Below, piece by piece: positions 11,574-18,753 of a stretch of 51,578 nucleotides of DNA. Position 1 is the first letter of the stretch. Each line of letters begins with the position of its first letter. A model generated the notes under the pieces. That model did no database searches and was not told the DNA's origin. It saw only the letters and a list, made by a program, of their open reading frames with translations. The stretch lies in contig NZ_LKBG01000001.1 in the NCBI RefSeq assembly GCF_001402945.1, positions 1 through 51,578 of the forward strand, written 5' to 3'. Origin of the DNA: Acidiplasma aeolicum. GTDB lineage: Archaea > Thermoplasmatota > Thermoplasmata > Thermoplasmatales > Thermoplasmataceae. Made by a program: the position numbers and the translations under genes.

Positions 11574-13478
11574 ATGGTAAGGTATATACCAATTGGCAAT
11601 GGAAAATTGCTTGTTAGCTTTAATAATGATTATAATCTTACGGATATATATTTTTCAAGAGAAATGGCTGAGAATCATAGTGGTGGTAGGCCGTTTAAAT
11701 ATGGTATTTCAGTGGATAATAATTTTGTCTGGATGAACAAAAATTTCCTTATTTCCAAAGATTATTTTGATCATACAATGATTGGAATTGCAAAATATAA
11801 AATTTCAGACGTATATTTTGAGGATCAAAATTTTGTTGATATCTATGAGGATATCTTTGTAAGAAAGGTTAAGATTTTGAATACAACTGATACGATTAAA
11901 AAAATTAAATTATTTTTCCACCAGAATTTTTCAATATACGGAAATAATATTGGTGATACAGCTTTTTATTACCCATACAACAATTCTATAATACATTACA
12001 AGGGAAGGAGATATTTTATGATATCCACCCTGGATGGTAATACCTCCTTTGATCAATATTCCGTGGGAATAAAGGATTTTAATGGTTTGGCAGGTACATG
12101 GAAGGATGCAGAGGATGGTGAACTTGCAATGAATACAATTGCAACCGGATCCGTTGATTCAATAATTAGGCATACAATTTCCATAGACCCAAAAGCATCA
12201 TTTGAACTGTATTATTATATACTGGCAGCCAGAGATTTAAAATCACTTCTTGAAACATCAAAGGAGATAACTGTTGAGAACCTGGAAAGAATGCTTAAGA
12301 GAACTGAAAATTTTTGGGAATTATGGGTGTCAAAATTTCAGGTTAACCTTGACAATTCATTGAATGAAATGTTTAAAAAATCGTTATTTATCATAAGGTC
12401 ACATATTAATGATAAGGGCGCGGTTCTGGCATCAAGCGATAGCGAAATCCTTAGAAGCAATATGGACTCATATTACTATTCATGGCCTAGAGACGCGGCA
12501 TATGCAGCTATTTCAATGATTATGTCTGATCACGGAGACCCTGCAAAATTATTTTTTGATTTTTGTATATCCACAATATCAGATGATGGTTATTTTTATC
12601 ATAAATACAATCCTGATGGTAAAATAGCAAGTAGCTGGCTTCCATATTACATGAATGGAAAAAGAATACTACCAATACAGGAGGATGAATCCGCCCTTGT
12701 CATCATAGCCATTTATTATTATTATTCCGTTTATAAGGATATAGAATATATATCTTATCTTTATGAAAAATTGATAAAAAAAATAGCAGATTTTCTATAT
12801 GAATTTACATACGAAAACGGTCTTCCCAGGGAATCTTTTGATTTGTGGGAAGAAAGATTCGGAATTAACACATATACCGTGGCCACCGTGTATTCTGCAC
12901 TTAAATATGCCTCAGCTTTTGCACAGATATTCAATGACATAGATCTCTCAAAAAAATATATGGATAAGGCTGATTTAATGCTAAAGACATTTAAGTCAAC
13001 ATTTTATTCTGATCTAACTGGTTATTATGGCAGAACAATGAATAATGGGAAGATTGACTTTACTCCAGATTCCTCGGTCCTATCACTTATAAACCTTGAT
13101 GTGCTGCCCCCAGACGATCCGACAATAAAATCAACTGTTAATAATATTGTCTCCAGATTATGGGTTCCTGACACAGGTGGCCTGGCAAGATATGAAAAAG
13201 ATTTTTATCAGAGACGGGATAACAGATATGATATTCCAGGAAATCCATGGATCATTACGACGCTATGGCTTGCGGACTACTATATCAAGATCAAAAATTT
13301 TGATAAGGCCAGAGATTTAATTTCATGGGTTGTGAATCATAGTGAGGCCTCAGGTATATTGTCTGAGCAAATAGACCCTATAACAGGTCAGCCTCTTTCA
13401 GTATCCCCATTAACATGGTCACATGCACAGTTTGTAATTACATTAATTAATTATAAAAATGCCATAAATCAAAAATAA
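11574..13478 (+). CDS. Glycoside hydrolase family 15 enzyme (glucoamylase or trehalase type)
   Basis: The 634-residue protein has the GH15 layout: an N-terminal beta-sandwich (about 1-260, starting RYIPIGNGKLLVSF) and a C-terminal (alpha/alpha)6 barrel. Barrel motifs are NMDSYYYSWPRDAAYAA, SSWLPYYMNGK, IQEDESALVIIAIYYY, FDLWEERFGINTYTVATVYSAL (general acid candidate Glu426/Glu427) and GILSEQIDPITGQPLSVSPLTWSHAQFV (base candidate Glu598). It would release glucose from maltooligosaccharides or glycogen, or split trehalose. Archaeal GH15 members of both specificities have been described in Thermoplasmatales, so the substrate is open. There is no signal peptide, so it acts in the cytoplasm. It is monocistronic. 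Confidence 0.88.
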   Translation: MVRYIPIGNGKLLVSFNNDYNLTDIYFSREMAENHSGGRPFKYGISVDNNFVWMNKNFLISKDYFDHTMIGIAKYKISDVYFEDQNFVDIYEDIFVRKVKILNTTDTIKKIKLFFHQNFSIYGNNIGDTAFYYPYNNSIIHYKGRRYFMISTLDGNTSFDQYSVGIKDFNGLAGTWKDAEDGELAMNTIATGSVDSIIRHTISIDPKASFELYYYILAARDLKSLLETSKEITVENLERMLKRTENFWELWVSKFQVNLDNSLNEMFKKSLFIIRSHINDKGAVLASSDSEILRSNMDSYYYSWPRDAAYAAISMIMSDHGDPAKLFFDFCISTISDDGYFYHKYNPDGKIASSWLPYYMNGKRILPIQEDESALVIIAIYYYYSVYKDIEYISYLYEKLIKKIADFLYEFTYENGLPRESFDLWEERFGINTYTVATVYSALKYASAFAQIFNDIDLSKKYMDKADLMLKTFKSTFYSDLTGYYGRTMNNGKIDFTPDSSVLSLINLDVLPPDDPTIKSTVNNIVSRLWVPDTGGLARYEKDFYQRRDNRYDIPGNPWIITTLWLADYYIKIKNFDKARDLISWVVNHSEASGILSEQIDPITGQPLSVSPLTWSHAQFVITLINYKNAINQK

Positions 13479-13587
13479 AAATTTACAATTGTTTTTATTT
13501 AAAATAAAATATTTGAAGTAAAATTTCATATTATAAAACAATAGAACGTGTGATATCTAAATCAAATGTAATTCAATATAACAAAGT

Positions 13588-13600
13588 TAATAAATATTAA
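13588..13600 (+). promoter_or_regulatory. Putative TATA box of the ribosomal superoperon
   Basis: The run TAATAAATATTAA lies about 110 bp upstream of the L3 start. With the usual 25-bp offset, transcription would start near 13620 and leave a leader of roughly 85 nt, long for this group, which contains the hairpin at 13658-13678. Confidence 0.4.
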
Positions 13601-13657
13601 ATTAATAACCTTAAAAAAACCATACACATTTGGGCAATGCATTTATGCATCCCGGTT

Positions 13658-13678
13658 TATCAGAAGTTCTTTCTGATA
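13658..13678 (+). promoter_or_regulatory. Perfect 8-bp hairpin in the superoperon leader
   Basis: TATCAGAA and TTCTGATA form an exact 8-bp inverted repeat around a 5-nt loop (GTTCT). The element sits 28 bp before the L3 start codon and about 15 bp before its GGTGA ribosome site. The position in the presumed leader of a long ribosomal operon fits a translational or autoregulatory site, but no family match is known to me. Confidence 0.45.
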
Positions 13679-13706
13679 TGGCAGGTGTAACGGTTGGTGA
13701 TAAAAG

Positions 13707-14699
13707 ATGGCAACTCCGCATCATTCCCGTAGGGGATCAATGGCGTACTATCCCAGGGTACGCGCTAAAAAAATTGGGGCTGATATTCGCTCTTGGCCTG
13801 AAATTGAGGGTAAGGCGAAAATTCAGGCATTCGCTGGCTATAAAGTTGGAATGACACATATACAGATGACAGACTATAGAAAAAATAGCGTTACAGCAGG
13901 TAAGACAATAATGGCTCCTGTCACCGTTGTTGAGGTCCCTCCGCTTAATGTAATAGCCATTCGTTATTATGAGGAAGGAGACAATGGTCTGCAGGTATTT
14001 GCAGAGGAACGTGCAGAAAATATAGATAAATCTGTATTTAGGAGAATACCAGAAATTAAAAATAAAAAGGAATTAAAGGTTGAGATTAAGGACGTTGCAG
14101 ATGTAAGATTAATAGTCCATACAAATCCAAAAATGGTTCCAAGCATACCCTCAAAAACCCCAGAAATATTTGAGATAAGGATAGGTGGTTCAACAATAGA
14201 AGATAGAATAAAGCTTGCAAAGGAAAAACTTGGAAAGGAATTAATATTCAGTGATTTTGCATCTGCCGGCTCGTTTATTGATGTTATATCTGTAACAAAA
14301 GGAAAAGGATTCCAGGGCGTTGTAAAGAGATTTGGAGTCAAACTTCTTCCAAGGAAAAACAGAAAGCATAGAAGGATGATTGGTACACTTGGTCCATGGC
14401 ATCCAGACTGGGTCAGGAATACTGTTCCCCAGGCAGGCCAGGTTGGATTTCATCAGAGAACACTTCATAATATAAGGGTTGTTAAAGTTGATACAAAAGA
14501 TCATGTTGATGATATAAACGTTAAAGGAGGTTTTCTTAATTATGGCCTGGTTAAAAATGATTATGTCCTGCTTTATGGTTCAATATCCGGACCAGCCAAA
14601 AGGTTAATTAAACTAAGAGACCCGGCAAGACAGACAAGGCCAAATGTTGAAAATATAGATATAACCTATATATCAAAGGAATCAAAACAGGGTGATTAA
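13707..14699 (+). CDS. rpl3: Large-subunit ribosomal protein L3
   Basis: The 330-residue protein begins MATPHHSRRGSMAYYPRVRA, matching the archaeal/eukaryotic L3 N-terminus. It contains AGYKVGMTHI, DVISVTKGKGFQGVVKRFGV, KNRKHRRMIGTLGPWHPDWVRNTVPQAGQVGFHQR and a normal C-terminus. L3 lies next to the peptidyl-transferase centre and starts large-subunit assembly. The start at 13707 is fixed by homology and by a GGTGA site 6 nt upstream. It is the first gene of a 30-gene plus-strand superoperon, and L4 follows after two bases. Confidence 0.97.
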   Translation: MATPHHSRRGSMAYYPRVRAKKIGADIRSWPEIEGKAKIQAFAGYKVGMTHIQMTDYRKNSVTAGKTIMAPVTVVEVPPLNVIAIRYYEEGDNGLQVFAEERAENIDKSVFRRIPEIKNKKELKVEIKDVADVRLIVHTNPKMVPSIPSKTPEIFEIRIGGSTIEDRIKLAKEKLGKELIFSDFASAGSFIDVISVTKGKGFQGVVKRFGVKLLPRKNRKHRRMIGTLGPWHPDWVRNTVPQAGQVGFHQRTLHNIRVVKVDTKDHVDDINVKGGFLNYGLVKNDYVLLYGSISGPAKRLIKLRDPARQTRPNVENIDITYISKESKQGD

Positions 14700-14701
14700 A
14701 C

Positions 14702-15472
14702 TTGAAGGTTAATGTATATAATATTGATGGTGAGGTCGAAAAACAGATAGATTTGCCTACTGTATTCGAAATTATGCCCCGGGAAGACCTTATACATAAA
14801 GCATTTAAAGCCATTACCTTATCATTACGGCAGCCATATGGGTCTAGCCCGGCTGCGGGAACACGCAGAGTTGGCCATAATCTGGGCCCAAACCATGGAA
14901 TATCAAGAATACCAAGAATCGCTGGCGGTTCACGTGGAGTACTTCTGGCAAGCATGGTTGGTGGTAGGAGTGCCCACTCACCCAGAAGTGATAAGGTCTT
15001 ATATAAGAAAATTAATAGCAAAGAATTAAAATATGCAAGATTAAGTGCAATAGCATTAACTGCCAGTAAGGAACATATAATAAAGAGAGGGCACAGGCTT
15101 GATGAGGATACAACATCAAATCTAACATTTCCAATAGTGGTTGATAATGACATTGAATCAATAAATAAGGCCAAGGATGCTATGAAATTCCTACAAAATC
15201 TTGGTCTTCTGGATGATGTTATTAGGGCAAAAAACGGTGTTAAGATAAGGCCAGGAAGGGGAAAAATGAGGAACAGGCCATATAAACATCCAAAAAGTGT
15301 TCTTATTGTTGGGTCATCACAGGAAAAACTTAGGGCATTTGCAGGCTTGCCGGGCGTTGATGTTGCCACAATAAACAGCCTTAGCATAAGGAAACTTGCC
15401 CCAGGAGGCAACCCCGGCAGGCTTACAGTTTATACCGAAAATGTAATTGAGCAGTTAAGAGGTGTTTATTAA
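14702..15472 (+). CDS. rpl4: Large-subunit ribosomal protein L4
   Basis: The 256-residue archaeal L4 (L4e type) shows LRQPYGSSPAAGTRRVGHNLGPNHGISRIPRI, GGRSAHSPRSDKVLYKKIN, LRKLAPGG-like sequence near the end and the long basic loop that enters the peptide exit tunnel. The start is TTG at 14702, two bases after the L3 stop, with the GGTGA of the L3 3' end as ribosome site; no ATG fits. The last base of its stop codon is the first base of the L23 ATG. Confidence 0.96.
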   Translation: MKVNVYNIDGEVEKQIDLPTVFEIMPREDLIHKAFKAITLSLRQPYGSSPAAGTRRVGHNLGPNHGISRIPRIAGGSRGVLLASMVGGRSAHSPRSDKVLYKKINSKELKYARLSAIALTASKEHIIKRGHRLDEDTTSNLTFPIVVDNDIESINKAKDAMKFLQNLGLLDDVIRAKNGVKIRPGRGKMRNRPYKHPKSVLIVGSSQEKLRAFAGLPGVDVATINSLSIRKLAPGGNPGRLTVYTENVIEQLRGVY

Positions 15473-15720
15473 TGGATTATATAATTACTCCTATAATTAC
15501 AGAAAAAACTACGTTGATGATGGAAAAGGAAAATAAACTTACATTTCTTGTTGACCGTAGAGGTAAAAAGGATCAGATTAAAAAAGAGGTAGAGGAAAGA
15601 TTCAATGTTAAGGTTAAATCTATAAATATTATGATAACAAAGAAGGGCAAAAAAGCCATAGTTAAATTAACCGATGACTTTTCTGCTGAAGAAATAGGGG
15701 GGAGAATAGGAATATTCTGA
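15472..15720 (+). CDS. rpl23: Large-subunit ribosomal protein L23
   Basis: The 82-residue protein has the L23 core: PIITEKTTLMMEKENKLTFLVDRRGKKDQIKKEVEERFNVKVKSINIMITKKGKKAIVKL. It sits at the exit of the ribosomal tunnel, where chaperones and SRP dock. The length is typical of the short archaeal form. It overlaps the L4 stop by one base (TAATG), implying coupled translation. Confidence 0.96.
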   Translation: MDYIITPIITEKTTLMMEKENKLTFLVDRRGKKDQIKKEVEERFNVKVKSINIMITKKGKKAIVKLTDDFSAEEIGGRIGIF

Positions 15721-15731
15721 GGTGAAAATAA

Positions 15732-16430
15732 ATGGGAAAACATATAATTGCACAGAGAAGGGGGCACGGGTCACTTACTTACCGTAGCCCTAGCTTCAGG
15801 CACGTTTCCGAAATTAAACATTTAGGCGATGGTAATTATAAAATTGAGGATATAATACAGGCACCGGGCAGAAATGCACCTGTACTTGTATTAAAAAATG
15901 AAAATAATGAAAAAAAATATATGCTTGCATTCAACGGAGCATATGTGGGTCAGGAAATTACGGTTGGTAATGCTGAATCAACATCCGTTGGTTCCACAAA
16001 TTTTCTTTCAAAAATAGATGACGGTGCCCTTGTATTTAATATAGAGAGCAGGCCAGGGGATGGGGGGAAATTCTGTAGAACTGCCGGATCCTATGGACTT
16101 GTTATAAGCCATGGTGAAAGTGTTTCGGTAAAGCTTCCATCTGGCAGAATTAAAGAGTTTAATCCGGGATGCCGTGCCACAGTTGGTGTTGTTGCCGGTT
16201 CTGGGGCACGTGATATACCTATATTAAAGGCCGGAACCCACATTAAATATCTGCAGAGCAAGGCAAAGAAGCCATATACAGTTAGAGGTGTTGCAATGAA
16301 TGCTGTAAATCATCCACATGGTGGAGGTAATCATCAGCATGTCGGCGGCCCAAGCACTGTAGGTCGTGGTGCACCACCAGGAGCAAAGGTTGGAAGATTA
16401 TCACCTAAAAGGAGGAATAAATCATGGTAG
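15732..16430 (+). CDS. rpl2: Large-subunit ribosomal protein L2
   Basis: The 232-residue L2 begins [14 protein letters not shown]. It shows [19 protein letters not shown] and the universally conserved [21 protein letters not shown] near the C-terminus, with the histidine implicated near the peptidyl-transferase centre. A GGTGA site lies 7 nt ahead of the ATG. It overlaps the start of S19 by 7 bp. Confidence 0.97.
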
Positions 16431-16879
16431 TTAGAAAACAGGCATCTGTAAAATCAATTAAGAGAAGATCACGAAAGGCGCAGAAGGCCATAACAGGGAG
16501 GGCAAAGGAATTCCTTTACCGTGGCCATACACTTGAGGAGCTTCAGGGTATGGAACTGGATGAGCTTTTACCGCTACTTCCTGCTAGGGCAAGAAGATCA
16601 TACAGCAGAGAAATGAATCACGAACAAAAGAAGTTATTTGAAGATCTGCTCAGTGATAAGCAGGATATAAAAACACATGTAAGGGATATAATCATACTGC
16701 CACAGTTCGTGGGAAAAACCATAGAACTATATAATGGTCATAGCTATTTGAAGTTTGATATTAAGGGAGAAATGATCGGCCATTACCTTGGAGAGTTTGC
16801 CCCTACAAGGAAGGAGGTAAAGCATTCTGGTCCAGGTGTTGGTGCCACAAGGTCATCGAAGTTCCTTCCACTGAAGTGA
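16424..16879 (+). CDS. rps19: Small-subunit ribosomal protein S19
   Basis: The 151-residue archaeal S19 (eukaryotic S15 type) has the extended N-terminus with [27 protein letters not shown] and the core [58 protein letters not shown]. It binds the 3' major domain of 16S rRNA with S13. The ATG lies within the end of L2. Confidence 0.96.
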
Positions 16880-16883
16880 TATT

Positions 16884-17333
16884 ATGAGAGGATACAGCAT
16901 AAAAAATTTACCGGAAAAATATGCGCTTGCAAGACTTAAGGAAGAAGACATCTCACTTAAGGATGCAGTTAACATAGCACATTTCTTAAAGGGCAAAAAA
17001 CTAGAATCCGCAAAAAATATACTTGATGGTGTTATAGAAAAAAAGGTACCTGTACCCTATTTTAGGTATCTTGACTCCGTATCACATAGAAAGGGCATCG
17101 GACCCGGCAGATATCCGGTTAAGGCTGCCAAGGCCTTCAAAAGGCTGCTTAACGATGTGTCAGCAAATGCTGAATTTAAGGGTCTTTCAGAAAATCTTTT
17201 AATATATTCCATAGCTGCATCAAAGGGCAGGGTAATAAAAAAATACACCCCAAAGGCCTATGGAAGGGCAGGCGCATTTTACAAGGAGCTTATTAACGTT
17301 GATGTTGTTGTAACTGAGGAGGGTCAGCAATGA
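16884..17333 (+). CDS. rpl22: Large-subunit ribosomal protein L22
   Basis: The 149-residue archaeal L22 (eukaryotic L17 type) shows [64 protein letters not shown] and [14 protein letters not shown], the loop that lines the exit tunnel. It starts 4 bp after the S19 stop and overlaps the S3 start by 4 bp (ATGA). Confidence 0.96.
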
Positions 17334-17986
17334 AAGAGAAAAAATTTGTCAGTGACAATATAAGAAAGCTACTTGTTAGTGAATACCTAAGAAGGGAAAA
17401 TGATAGCGCCGGCTTTGGTGGCATGGAAATGAAGAGAACACCATTTGGTACAAACATAACGCTGTATGTAAACAGGCCTGGGCTTGTTATAGGCCGGCAT
17501 GGAACCAAGATAAAGGACATGACGGAGGAGCTGGAGAAAAAATATAAACTTGAGTCCCCACAGATAGAGGTAAAGGAGGTGGATAATCCAGATTTAAATC
17601 CACAGATTATATCAAAGAAGATAGCCCTATCTCTTGAGAAAGGCTGGAATTATAGAAAGGCAGGGAATACAACATTAAGGCGCGTTATAGATCAGCATGC
17701 ACGTGGCGTATTAATAAGGATCGGCGGTAAAATATCAGGCGAAAGGGCAAGAACGCAGAAGTTTATGTATGGAGAAATTAAATACTCCGGGGAGCCTGCA
17801 AGGGCAGGAGTTGATGGCGGCTTCTCAGTTGCAATGCTTAAAACTGGTGTCATAGGCGTATATGTAAAACTGTTAAAATCTGATTACAGGCTTCCTGATG
17901 AGATTGGCATTAAACAAAACCCTGTACAGCCTGTAAATGAATCGCCTGAAAATAATGAGGTGGAGGATAATGGAACTGAAGAGTAA
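17330..17986 (+). CDS. rps3: Small-subunit ribosomal protein S3
   Basis: The 218-residue S3 has a KH domain with [22 protein letters not shown] and the C-terminal domain motifs [40 protein letters not shown]. It forms part of the mRNA entry channel. The acidic C-terminal tail (about 200-218, [18 protein letters not shown]) is encoded partly across the L29 start, with a 17-bp overlap. Confidence 0.96.
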
Positions 17987-18167
17987 GGATTTAAGATCCA
18001 TGAGCAATGAGGAGTTAAATCAAAAACTCAAATCCCTTAAGGATTCATTGCTAAGGGAAAGGGCATCTGTTGCAATGGGTGGTGCCCCATCAAGCCCTGG
18101 CAAGATGAGATCCATAAGGAGGCAGATAGCCAGAGTGTTAACAATAATGGAGGAAAAAGAAGAATGA
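17970..18167 (+). CDS. rpl29: Large-subunit ribosomal protein L29
   Basis: The start is placed at 17970 ([20 protein letters not shown]), giving 65 residues, because this matches the L29 N-terminus and a GGAGG site precedes it by 3-7 nt. A longer frame from 17937 adds residues that only mirror the S3 tail. The helical hairpin [39 protein letters not shown] is typical. It overlaps S3 by 17 bp and the SUI1 start by 4 bp. Confidence 0.93.
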
Positions 18168-18463
18168 AAGATAAAGATTTTACCGGGATGCCGAAGGAGC
18201 TGCAGCCATGGGAGGGCTTTAACAGGAATAATGAGGTAGTTAGAATAAGTGTAGATAAAAGACGGTACGGAAAAACAGTTACTGTTATTGAGGGAATAGA
18301 CCCAAAATCCGAAAACCTCAACGATATTGCCAAGGTATTAAAGAAGAAGGCTGCCTCCGGAGGAACAGTTAAGGACGGTAAATCTATAGAACTTCAGGGA
18401 GACCATAGGGAAACCATTAAAAAAGAACTAGAAAATATGGGATTTAAGGTTCAATTAGTATGA
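18164..18463 (+). CDS. Translation initiation factor aIF1 (SUI1 family)
   Basis: The 99-residue protein has the SUI1/eIF1 core: VVRISVDKRRYGKTVTVIEGID, LNDIAKVLKKKAASGGTVKDGKSIELQGDHRETIKKELENMGF. It binds near the P site of the small subunit and guards start-codon selection. It is embedded between L29 and the RNase P protein gene with 4-bp overlaps at both ends, a known archaeal arrangement. Confidence 0.95.
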   Translation: MKDKDFTGMPKELQPWEGFNRNNEVVRISVDKRRYGKTVTVIEGIDPKSENLNDIAKVLKKKAASGGTVKDGKSIELQGDHRETIKKELENMGFKVQLV

Positions 18464-18753
18464 TAAATAATGATATATATCTTCAGGAATTCATCGGAAA
18501 CTATATAGAAGTCATATCCTCATCAAATAACAACAACATTGGCCTGCATGGATATGTGGTTGATGAAACAAAGAATACATTGATTATAGATCATTCAGGC
18601 AAACAAAAGGTCGTACCTAAGGCATATTCAAAATTTCGAATATGGATATCAGGAAATCCGTATGATCTGGAAGGTTCATTAATAATAATGAAGCCTGAAG
18701 ATAGGACAAAAGAAAAAAAGAAGATATTTAAAAAATTAAGGAGAAATGATTAA
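18460..18753 (+). CDS. rnp1: RNase P protein component 1 (Rpp29/Pop4)
   Basis: The 97-residue protein matches archaeal Rpp29. It has an N-terminal EFIGNYIEVISSSN, the Sm-like beta barrel IGLHGYVVDETKNTLIIDHSGKQKVVPKAYSKFRIWI and a basic C-terminal helix. It pairs with Rpp21 in RNase P and helps position the tRNA precursor. Its place between SUI1 and S17 is the classical one in archaeal superoperons. Confidence 0.92.
   Translation: MINNDIYLQEFIGNYIEVISSSNNNNIGLHGYVVDETKNTLIIDHSGKQKVVPKAYSKFRIWISGNPYDLEGSLIIMKPEDRTKEKKKIFKKLRRND

Follow-up and report, generated by a model that had tools for sequence, protein, structure and literature searches.

What lies between the start of transcription and the L3 gene of the ribosomal superoperon in Acidiplasma aeolicum, and could it control the operon? 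In the window, by which we mean the whole 51,578-nt stretch of contig NZ_LKBG01000001.1 analysed here, the original prediction had singled out a hairpin with an 8-bp stem and a 5-nt loop at 13658-13678, just before the L3 gene, as well placed for autoregulation or attenuation. When the L3 leaders of relatives were set side by side, we recognised a larger conserved unit around this hairpin, a 76-nt three-way-junction RNA (13619-13694, forward strand) that consists of the arms P1, P2 and P3 and lies 5' of the L3 gene. We propose, with a probability of roughly 0.7, that the L3-L4-L23-L2... mRNA begins with this element, which would be a new archaeal ribosomal leader, and that a protein of its own operon, with uL4 as the leading guess, would bind the element and repress translation. 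The features on which the argument draws are as follows.

13587-13596, forward strand: weak TATA-like stretch TTAATAAATA, 6 of 8 letters to TTTAWATA, its centre lying 26-28 nt before 13619
13619-13627, forward strand: 5' strand of P1, ACC-A-UACAC (match of covariance model R1 to 13619-13694, E 9.3e-15; pair counts)
13631-13654, forward strand: arm P2 with the internal loop CA(A), containing the ATGCAT pair (fold; pair counts)
13655-13682, forward strand: arm P3, whose core 13658-13678 is the originally noted hairpin (fold; compensatory changes; z-scores)
13685-13694, forward strand: 3' strand of P1, GUGUA-AC-GGU (model R1 match; pair counts)
13696-13701, forward strand: SD-like site GGTGAT, 1 nt after P1 (sequence)
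13707-14699, forward strand: uL3 gene, first of the operon (Pfam PF00297, E 5.8e-77)
14702-15472, forward strand: uL4 gene, leading ligand candidate (Pfam PF00573, E 1.9e-29; start codon as listed among the open reading frames)
15472-17986, forward strand: uL23, uL2, uS19, uL22 and uS3 genes, further candidate ligands (Pfam)

The predicted hairpin is present exactly as described, with the stem TATCAGAA / TTCTGATA at 13658-13665 / 13671-13678 and the loop GTTCT, and it is contained in the minimum-energy fold of 13619-13694, which is the three-way junction (-21.3 kcal/mol, z -2.16). In this fold 13637-13641 pairs with 13646-13650, and the ATGCAT pair that had been suspected of adding structure forms the inner part of P2. 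The closing stem P1 (13619-13627 / 13685-13694) had been overlooked, and the hairpin, real as it is, is one arm of three. Seven of 200 shuffles fold as well as 13619-13694, and by itself the fold of the window is only modestly unusual against shuffles; it is conservation and compensatory change in relatives that lift the element above chance. Leaders folded alone gave the same junction in 54 of the 56 distinct complete leaders of the window's family, the exceptions being one with another fold (L019) and one with P1 partly open (L102). With coding sequence added, P1 of the window is formed in ~35-46% of the ensemble, and with slightly different flanks in 50-68%.

For the analysis of covariation, 96 family leaders were reduced to 58 distinct and 56 complete ones, with two left out that had no recognisable L3 start (L142, L146) and two that ran into contig ends (L002, L014). 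Forty of the 56 were aligned by sequence only with MAFFT. P1 and P2 are paired in 98.3% of the cells of this alignment, 7 of the 15 pairs are changed on both sides, the covariation score is reached by 0 of 500 shuffles, and the pairing is lost once the partners are slid against each other; further pair types do not exceed the shuffles here (59/500 reach their count). Class-wide, P1 and P2 are paired in 97.0% of cells with 9 of 15 pairs double-changed, and further pair types are above shuffles (0/500 reach the count), in 79 sequences that model R1 matched among 85 sources and whose alignment, being fitted to the model, leans to it. Since the sequences are related, none of these shuffle counts is a probability. 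Two pairs illustrate the exchange in the 79 sequences: pair 5-86 is UA in 41, GC in 36 and AU in 2, and pair 8-83 is AU in 44, GC in 28 and UA in 2. Five of the 15 pairs (2-90, 3-89, 7-84, 16-37 and 17-36) are invariant class-wide and uninformative on covariation. Taken over relatives, these counts argue for a conserved secondary structure with covariation, a mark of ribosomal leaders (r-leaders).

P3 behaves differently, varying in length and sequence among relatives. Folded alone against dinucleotide shuffles it has a mean z of -2.37 (n=79), with 85% of the values below -1 and two above 0. The compensation expected for the hairpin stem was found for its outer part: the outer six pairs persist in 7/7 close relatives, with double changes at five (5/8 pairs overall), but the inner two fail in 4/7 and 2/7, and further pair types in this small set are not above shuffles (291/500). 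Compensatory changes thus indicate that the stem is real and about six pairs long in relatives. P3 is the least conserved arm, and the unit is the entire three-way junction. P1 may also extend at its lower end by up to four pairs. The four positions pair in 37, 36, 34 and 30 of 40 class rows and in 34, 30, 23 and 22 of 56 leaders of the window's family; results of the control are mixed (the class slid by -1 gives 38, 2, 32 and 29) and four rows (L179, L230, L236, L238) are misregistered, so that this extension is suggestive only.

Reading the alignments by eye, we found the best-kept letters of P1 to be CCA-K-AC / GU-M-ACGG, with an A opposite AC between two helices, and those of P2 to be GGGCAAU / A(A or U)CCC, with exceptions such as GGCUC in P2 of one genus (L118-L120); the right side of the P3 loop is often UUYUG-like. 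Conserved loop letters together with drifting helices are as expected for a binding site.

The element extends far beyond the close relatives. The window comes from an archaeon close to Ferroplasma, its L3 protein sharing 83% identity with L3 of F. acidarmanus Fer1 (Thermoplasmatales, phylum Thermoplasmatota). Model R1, which has one match in the window's own genome (E 9e-15; next E 6.4), matched 176 of 400 genomes of the class at E <= 0.1, including 110 of 192 good-quality ones. A second covariance model, R2, was built from the class-wide set and found matches in 284 of the 389 phylum genomes at E <= 0.01 (150/204 among good-quality genomes; 103/155 genera). Among the matching genomes listed, one has two matches and the others have one. 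One genome (G008) carries two copies of the element on different contigs (L212, L144), one at a contig end, which is likely a mixed assembly. Of the matches that were fetched, 58/60 lie upstream of L3. They comprise 38 of 40 loci from the class search, with 37 L3 starts recognised by motif and one (L213) by reading MATPHHSRRG, and 20 of 20 further loci, of which 17 lie outside the class; the two class-search loci that could not be judged lie at a contig edge (L212) or are masked (L217). In one locus (L227) the L3 start stands some 300 nt downstream of the element, with no intervening frame over 57 aa. It is comparison that shows the fold, the position before L3 and the spread through the phylum.

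There are lineages in which the element has changed or is missing. Six of the 85 sources, the I-plasma-type relatives, were unmatched by R1, and neither R1 nor R2 matched the I-plasma-type loci given; among 38 loci (5 of I-plasma type, 33 of other archaea) there were two weak partial matches. The I-plasma type has a diverged three-way junction with 26 predicted pairs, 4 of them with double changes; in its family f4 we noted the junction AGCCACACGUC / GACGCAACGGCU and the loss of two P1 pairs. In another family, f15, L3 is present and the element absent in all 8 leaders read, which we regard as a natural loss; since this family does without the element, the control would be dispensable. The L3 leaders of f15 look short, with a TATA-like box near the gene and a GGAGG-like stretch ahead of the L3 start.

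Where does the transcript begin? TATA boxes with 7-8 of 8 letters are centred 26-32 nt before P1 in 43 of 56 family leaders, and a box falls into the 28-45 nt slot in 36 of 51 leaders against 5.3 expected by shuffling. For the class loci, a TATA box stands at 36-51 nt in 37 of 37 usable loci (3 skipped), a range read off afterwards; in the preset slot of 22-40 nt a box occurs in 4/37 only, against 0.9 expected. Among 20 other loci, 13 have a box at 35-50 nt and 7 have none within the 70 nt examined. Because the boxes stand at such steady distances, the RNA should open the mRNA in most lineages, and the element is predicted to be the 5' end of the transcript there. With the transcript start placed by these TATA boxes, the position of the element in the 5' leader of ribosomal-protein genes is consistent across genomes, a further mark of r-leaders. 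In the window, the leader of 85 nt that had been deduced from a good TATA box holds up in its length: the box is weak at 6 of 8 letters, but it sits where relatives have strong boxes, which makes a leader length of about 85-90 nt likely. The gene upstream on the same strand (11574-13478) encodes a protein of glycoside hydrolase family 15 (Pfam E 3e-30) and ends 140 nt before P1.

On its other side the element adjoins the ribosome site. GGTGAT is a 6-nt SD match to the 3' end of the genome's own 16S rRNA, GGATCACCTCC. An SD match starts 1-7 nt after P1 in 52 of 58 distinct family leaders, and the distance from the end of P1 to the start codon is 12-20 nt in these 58; in other families L3 starts roughly 35-105 nt after the element. 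In L180, L182, L188, L201, L232 and other loci, a second conserved segment, approximately GCGAGGUUAGCGAAGANACCCUCGC or, in other families, AGAGAGUGG..CUCUC, lies between junction and L3 and might form a read-out hairpin of its own. For most relatives in the window's family, pairing of the SD with early codons of L3 is predicted (median probability 0.72, n=56, a figure without control); the window is unlike them, its SD at 13696-13701 pairing with 13707-13740 at a probability of 0.08, likewise without control. The gene downstream is L3, as had been assumed and as Pfam confirms. Further along, the operon includes SUI1 (translation initiation factor) and RNase P subunit p29 at 18164-18753 (Pfam), and presumably, further on, the genes of S17, L14, L24 and S4e.

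We suggest the following mechanism, which is probably a feedback control matching the supply of ribosomal proteins to need. An operon-encoded protein in excess over rRNA would bind the conserved core, for which the A-over-AC internal loop of P1 beside its CC:GG pairs, together with the GGGCAAU / A(A,U)CCC loop of P2, is the candidate site. The bound protein would hold P1 shut, and a shut P1 lying 1-7 nt before the SD, as in the window's family, would stand in the way of the 30S subunit and reduce the translation of L3 and the coupled genes. The idea that a structured leader at this place is suited to autoregulation draws support from its position and conservation, with the whole junction rather than the hairpin alone as the acting unit. 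Direct blocking of the SD would not be a universal mechanism, since the L3 start lies far from the element in other families; the read-out may differ there, through other possible hairpins between element and start codon. As to the ligand, uL4 seems the likeliest single candidate, at about one chance in three. Only precedent favours it, since uL4 binds, or is predicted to bind, leaders of the same operon in other organisms; open alternatives are L3, L2, L23, L22, S3 and later operon products.

Ribosomal leaders commonly, though not obligatorily, mimic rRNA, and several such identities were tried. A bacterial 23S hairpin near E. coli 1127-1150, which we took to look like P1 with its strands swapped, was rejected as the model: the genome's own 23S rRNA has neither TAACGG nor CATACA. 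The exact P1 core occurs 0 times in the own 23S against about 3 expected. The 9-mer GUGUAACGG, present in the own 16S rRNA, was dropped, as about one occurrence is expected by chance (a rough estimate) and other families have GUCACGG there. The P1 core pattern occurs in the 16S locus, including flanking DNA, 6 times directly and 4 times swapped (2.2 and 1.5 expected), and a P2-like pattern occurs 5 times directly in the own 23S (1.4 expected), both joining distant segments. The own 23S also contains GCAACCC.GGAA.GGGCUGU, which resembles P2 with exchanged strands where the window reads GCAUCCC, and which presumably lies near the uL4 site; as a mimic of that site, this one 7-mer is weak and a lead only.

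How well do other explanations account for the same observations? The partly formed P1 of the window leaves room for a ligand to shift it, and it equally fits a weak, passive stem. A structure without a specific ligand that protects the mRNA, helps to load the 30S subunit or serves as a thermometer would agree with the predicted 5'-end position and with the marginal stability of P1 once coding sequence is added. We consider it unlikely, as the single-stranded letters of the P1 A-over-AC and the P2 CAA are conserved phylum-wide while the helices drift, and a passive stem has no need of them. A compact junction whose loop letters are conserved would be suitable for a riboswitch that senses a small molecule or ion, but the element is single-copy in the window's genome and the checked places lie in front of L3 rather than of metabolic or transport genes, which leaves this very unlikely. 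Binding by a regulator encoded outside the operon (L7Ae, an initiation factor or some other protein that binds RNA) is quite unlikely given that the element is tied to L3, even though the SUI1 gene within the operon could speak for an initiation factor. A kink-turn has a three-nucleotide bulge and then tandem G-A pairs. In the alignments read, this signature was not seen in the element, tandem G-A pairs being absent from both internal loops, and an L7Ae kink-turn leader was accordingly rejected, although L7Ae is reported to act through archaeal leaders (PMC5539422, PMC6298567).

Attenuation of transcription, the other role originally offered for the hairpin, found no support and appears most improbable. 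The element does stand ahead of the entire operon, and in E. coli uL4 acts partly in this way (PMC10931766). However, a bacterial-type scan, which a bare archaeal U-tract would escape, found no intrinsic-terminator-like site in 13400-13900, and the stretch from P1 to the start codon measures merely those 12-20 nt in the 58 family leaders. Feedback by an operon-encoded protein remains our preferred reading.

To place the element among described RNAs, we searched Rfam 15. At gathering score no family matched the element, either in the window or in 14 related loci (8 of them with the element), where only tRNA and 5S were found; in E-value mode, 13560-13760 gave only two chance matches (E near 3.8), and 20 class and phylum members gave no match. 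No description of a Thermoplasmatota L3 leader was found in the open-licence PubMed Central literature. By position and covariation, the element is best described as a ribosomal leader, new in the sense of not being found in Rfam 15 or in the open-licence literature. The control of ribosomal-protein synthesis in archaea is little charted, and here a small, defined RNA before a major ribosomal-protein operon comes with natural variants and a natural loss (f15), so that ligand and mechanism are directly testable. Separately, L3 leaders of Woesearchaeota and Nanoarchaeota (15 rows) contain a different conserved structure, AGCCUGAAAAG..CUUUUCAGUACAGUU..AACUGUUUUCUA..AAGGC..AAAAGGCU, with 9 of 19 predicted pairs double-changed in 17 sequences (L075 and L080 fit poorly), possibly another ribosomal leader. 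We give even odds to a reading in which a leader from the common ancestor of Thermoplasmatota exerts feedback over the entire L3 superoperon by means of a three-way junction that is no copy of rRNA. Together with the different DPANN L3 leader, this would suggest that leaders control the operon widely across Archaea and that such control has gone unnoticed.

A close counterpart belongs to the E. coli S10 operon, which includes L3, L4, L23 and L2. Its leader is long and multi-hairpin, bound by uL4 and equipped with an attenuator (PMC10931766). The present element likewise stands ahead of an L3, L4, L23, L2 operon, and control by one product, known in E. coli, is what we propose here; unlike the S10 leader, it is one 76-nt junction with no terminator-like site and no Rfam match. 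Archaeal uL1 provides feedback of a ribosomal protein through an mRNA site resembling its 23S site, as outlined in the same source (PMC10931766). Such archaeal feedback through mRNA is what we infer for the L3 leader as well, in another operon and with no rRNA mimic established in the element. Archaeal L7Ae leaders carry a kink-turn and are reported to be bound by a ribosomal protein (PMC5539422, PMC6298567); binding of a ribosomal protein by an archaeal leader would be shared, whereas the kink-turn signature is absent from our element in the alignments read. In its results section, the 2020 survey names four new archaeal r-leaders and gives none for Thermoplasmatota (PMC7247131). The Archaeoglobi L4 r-leader is a prediction that its authors rate as borderline (Eckert and Weinberg 2020, PMC7247131). 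Thermoplasmatota are another lineage than Archaeoglobi, but in both an archaeal, predicted structured leader stands before the same operon (rplC, rplD, rplW, rplB) (PMC7247131).
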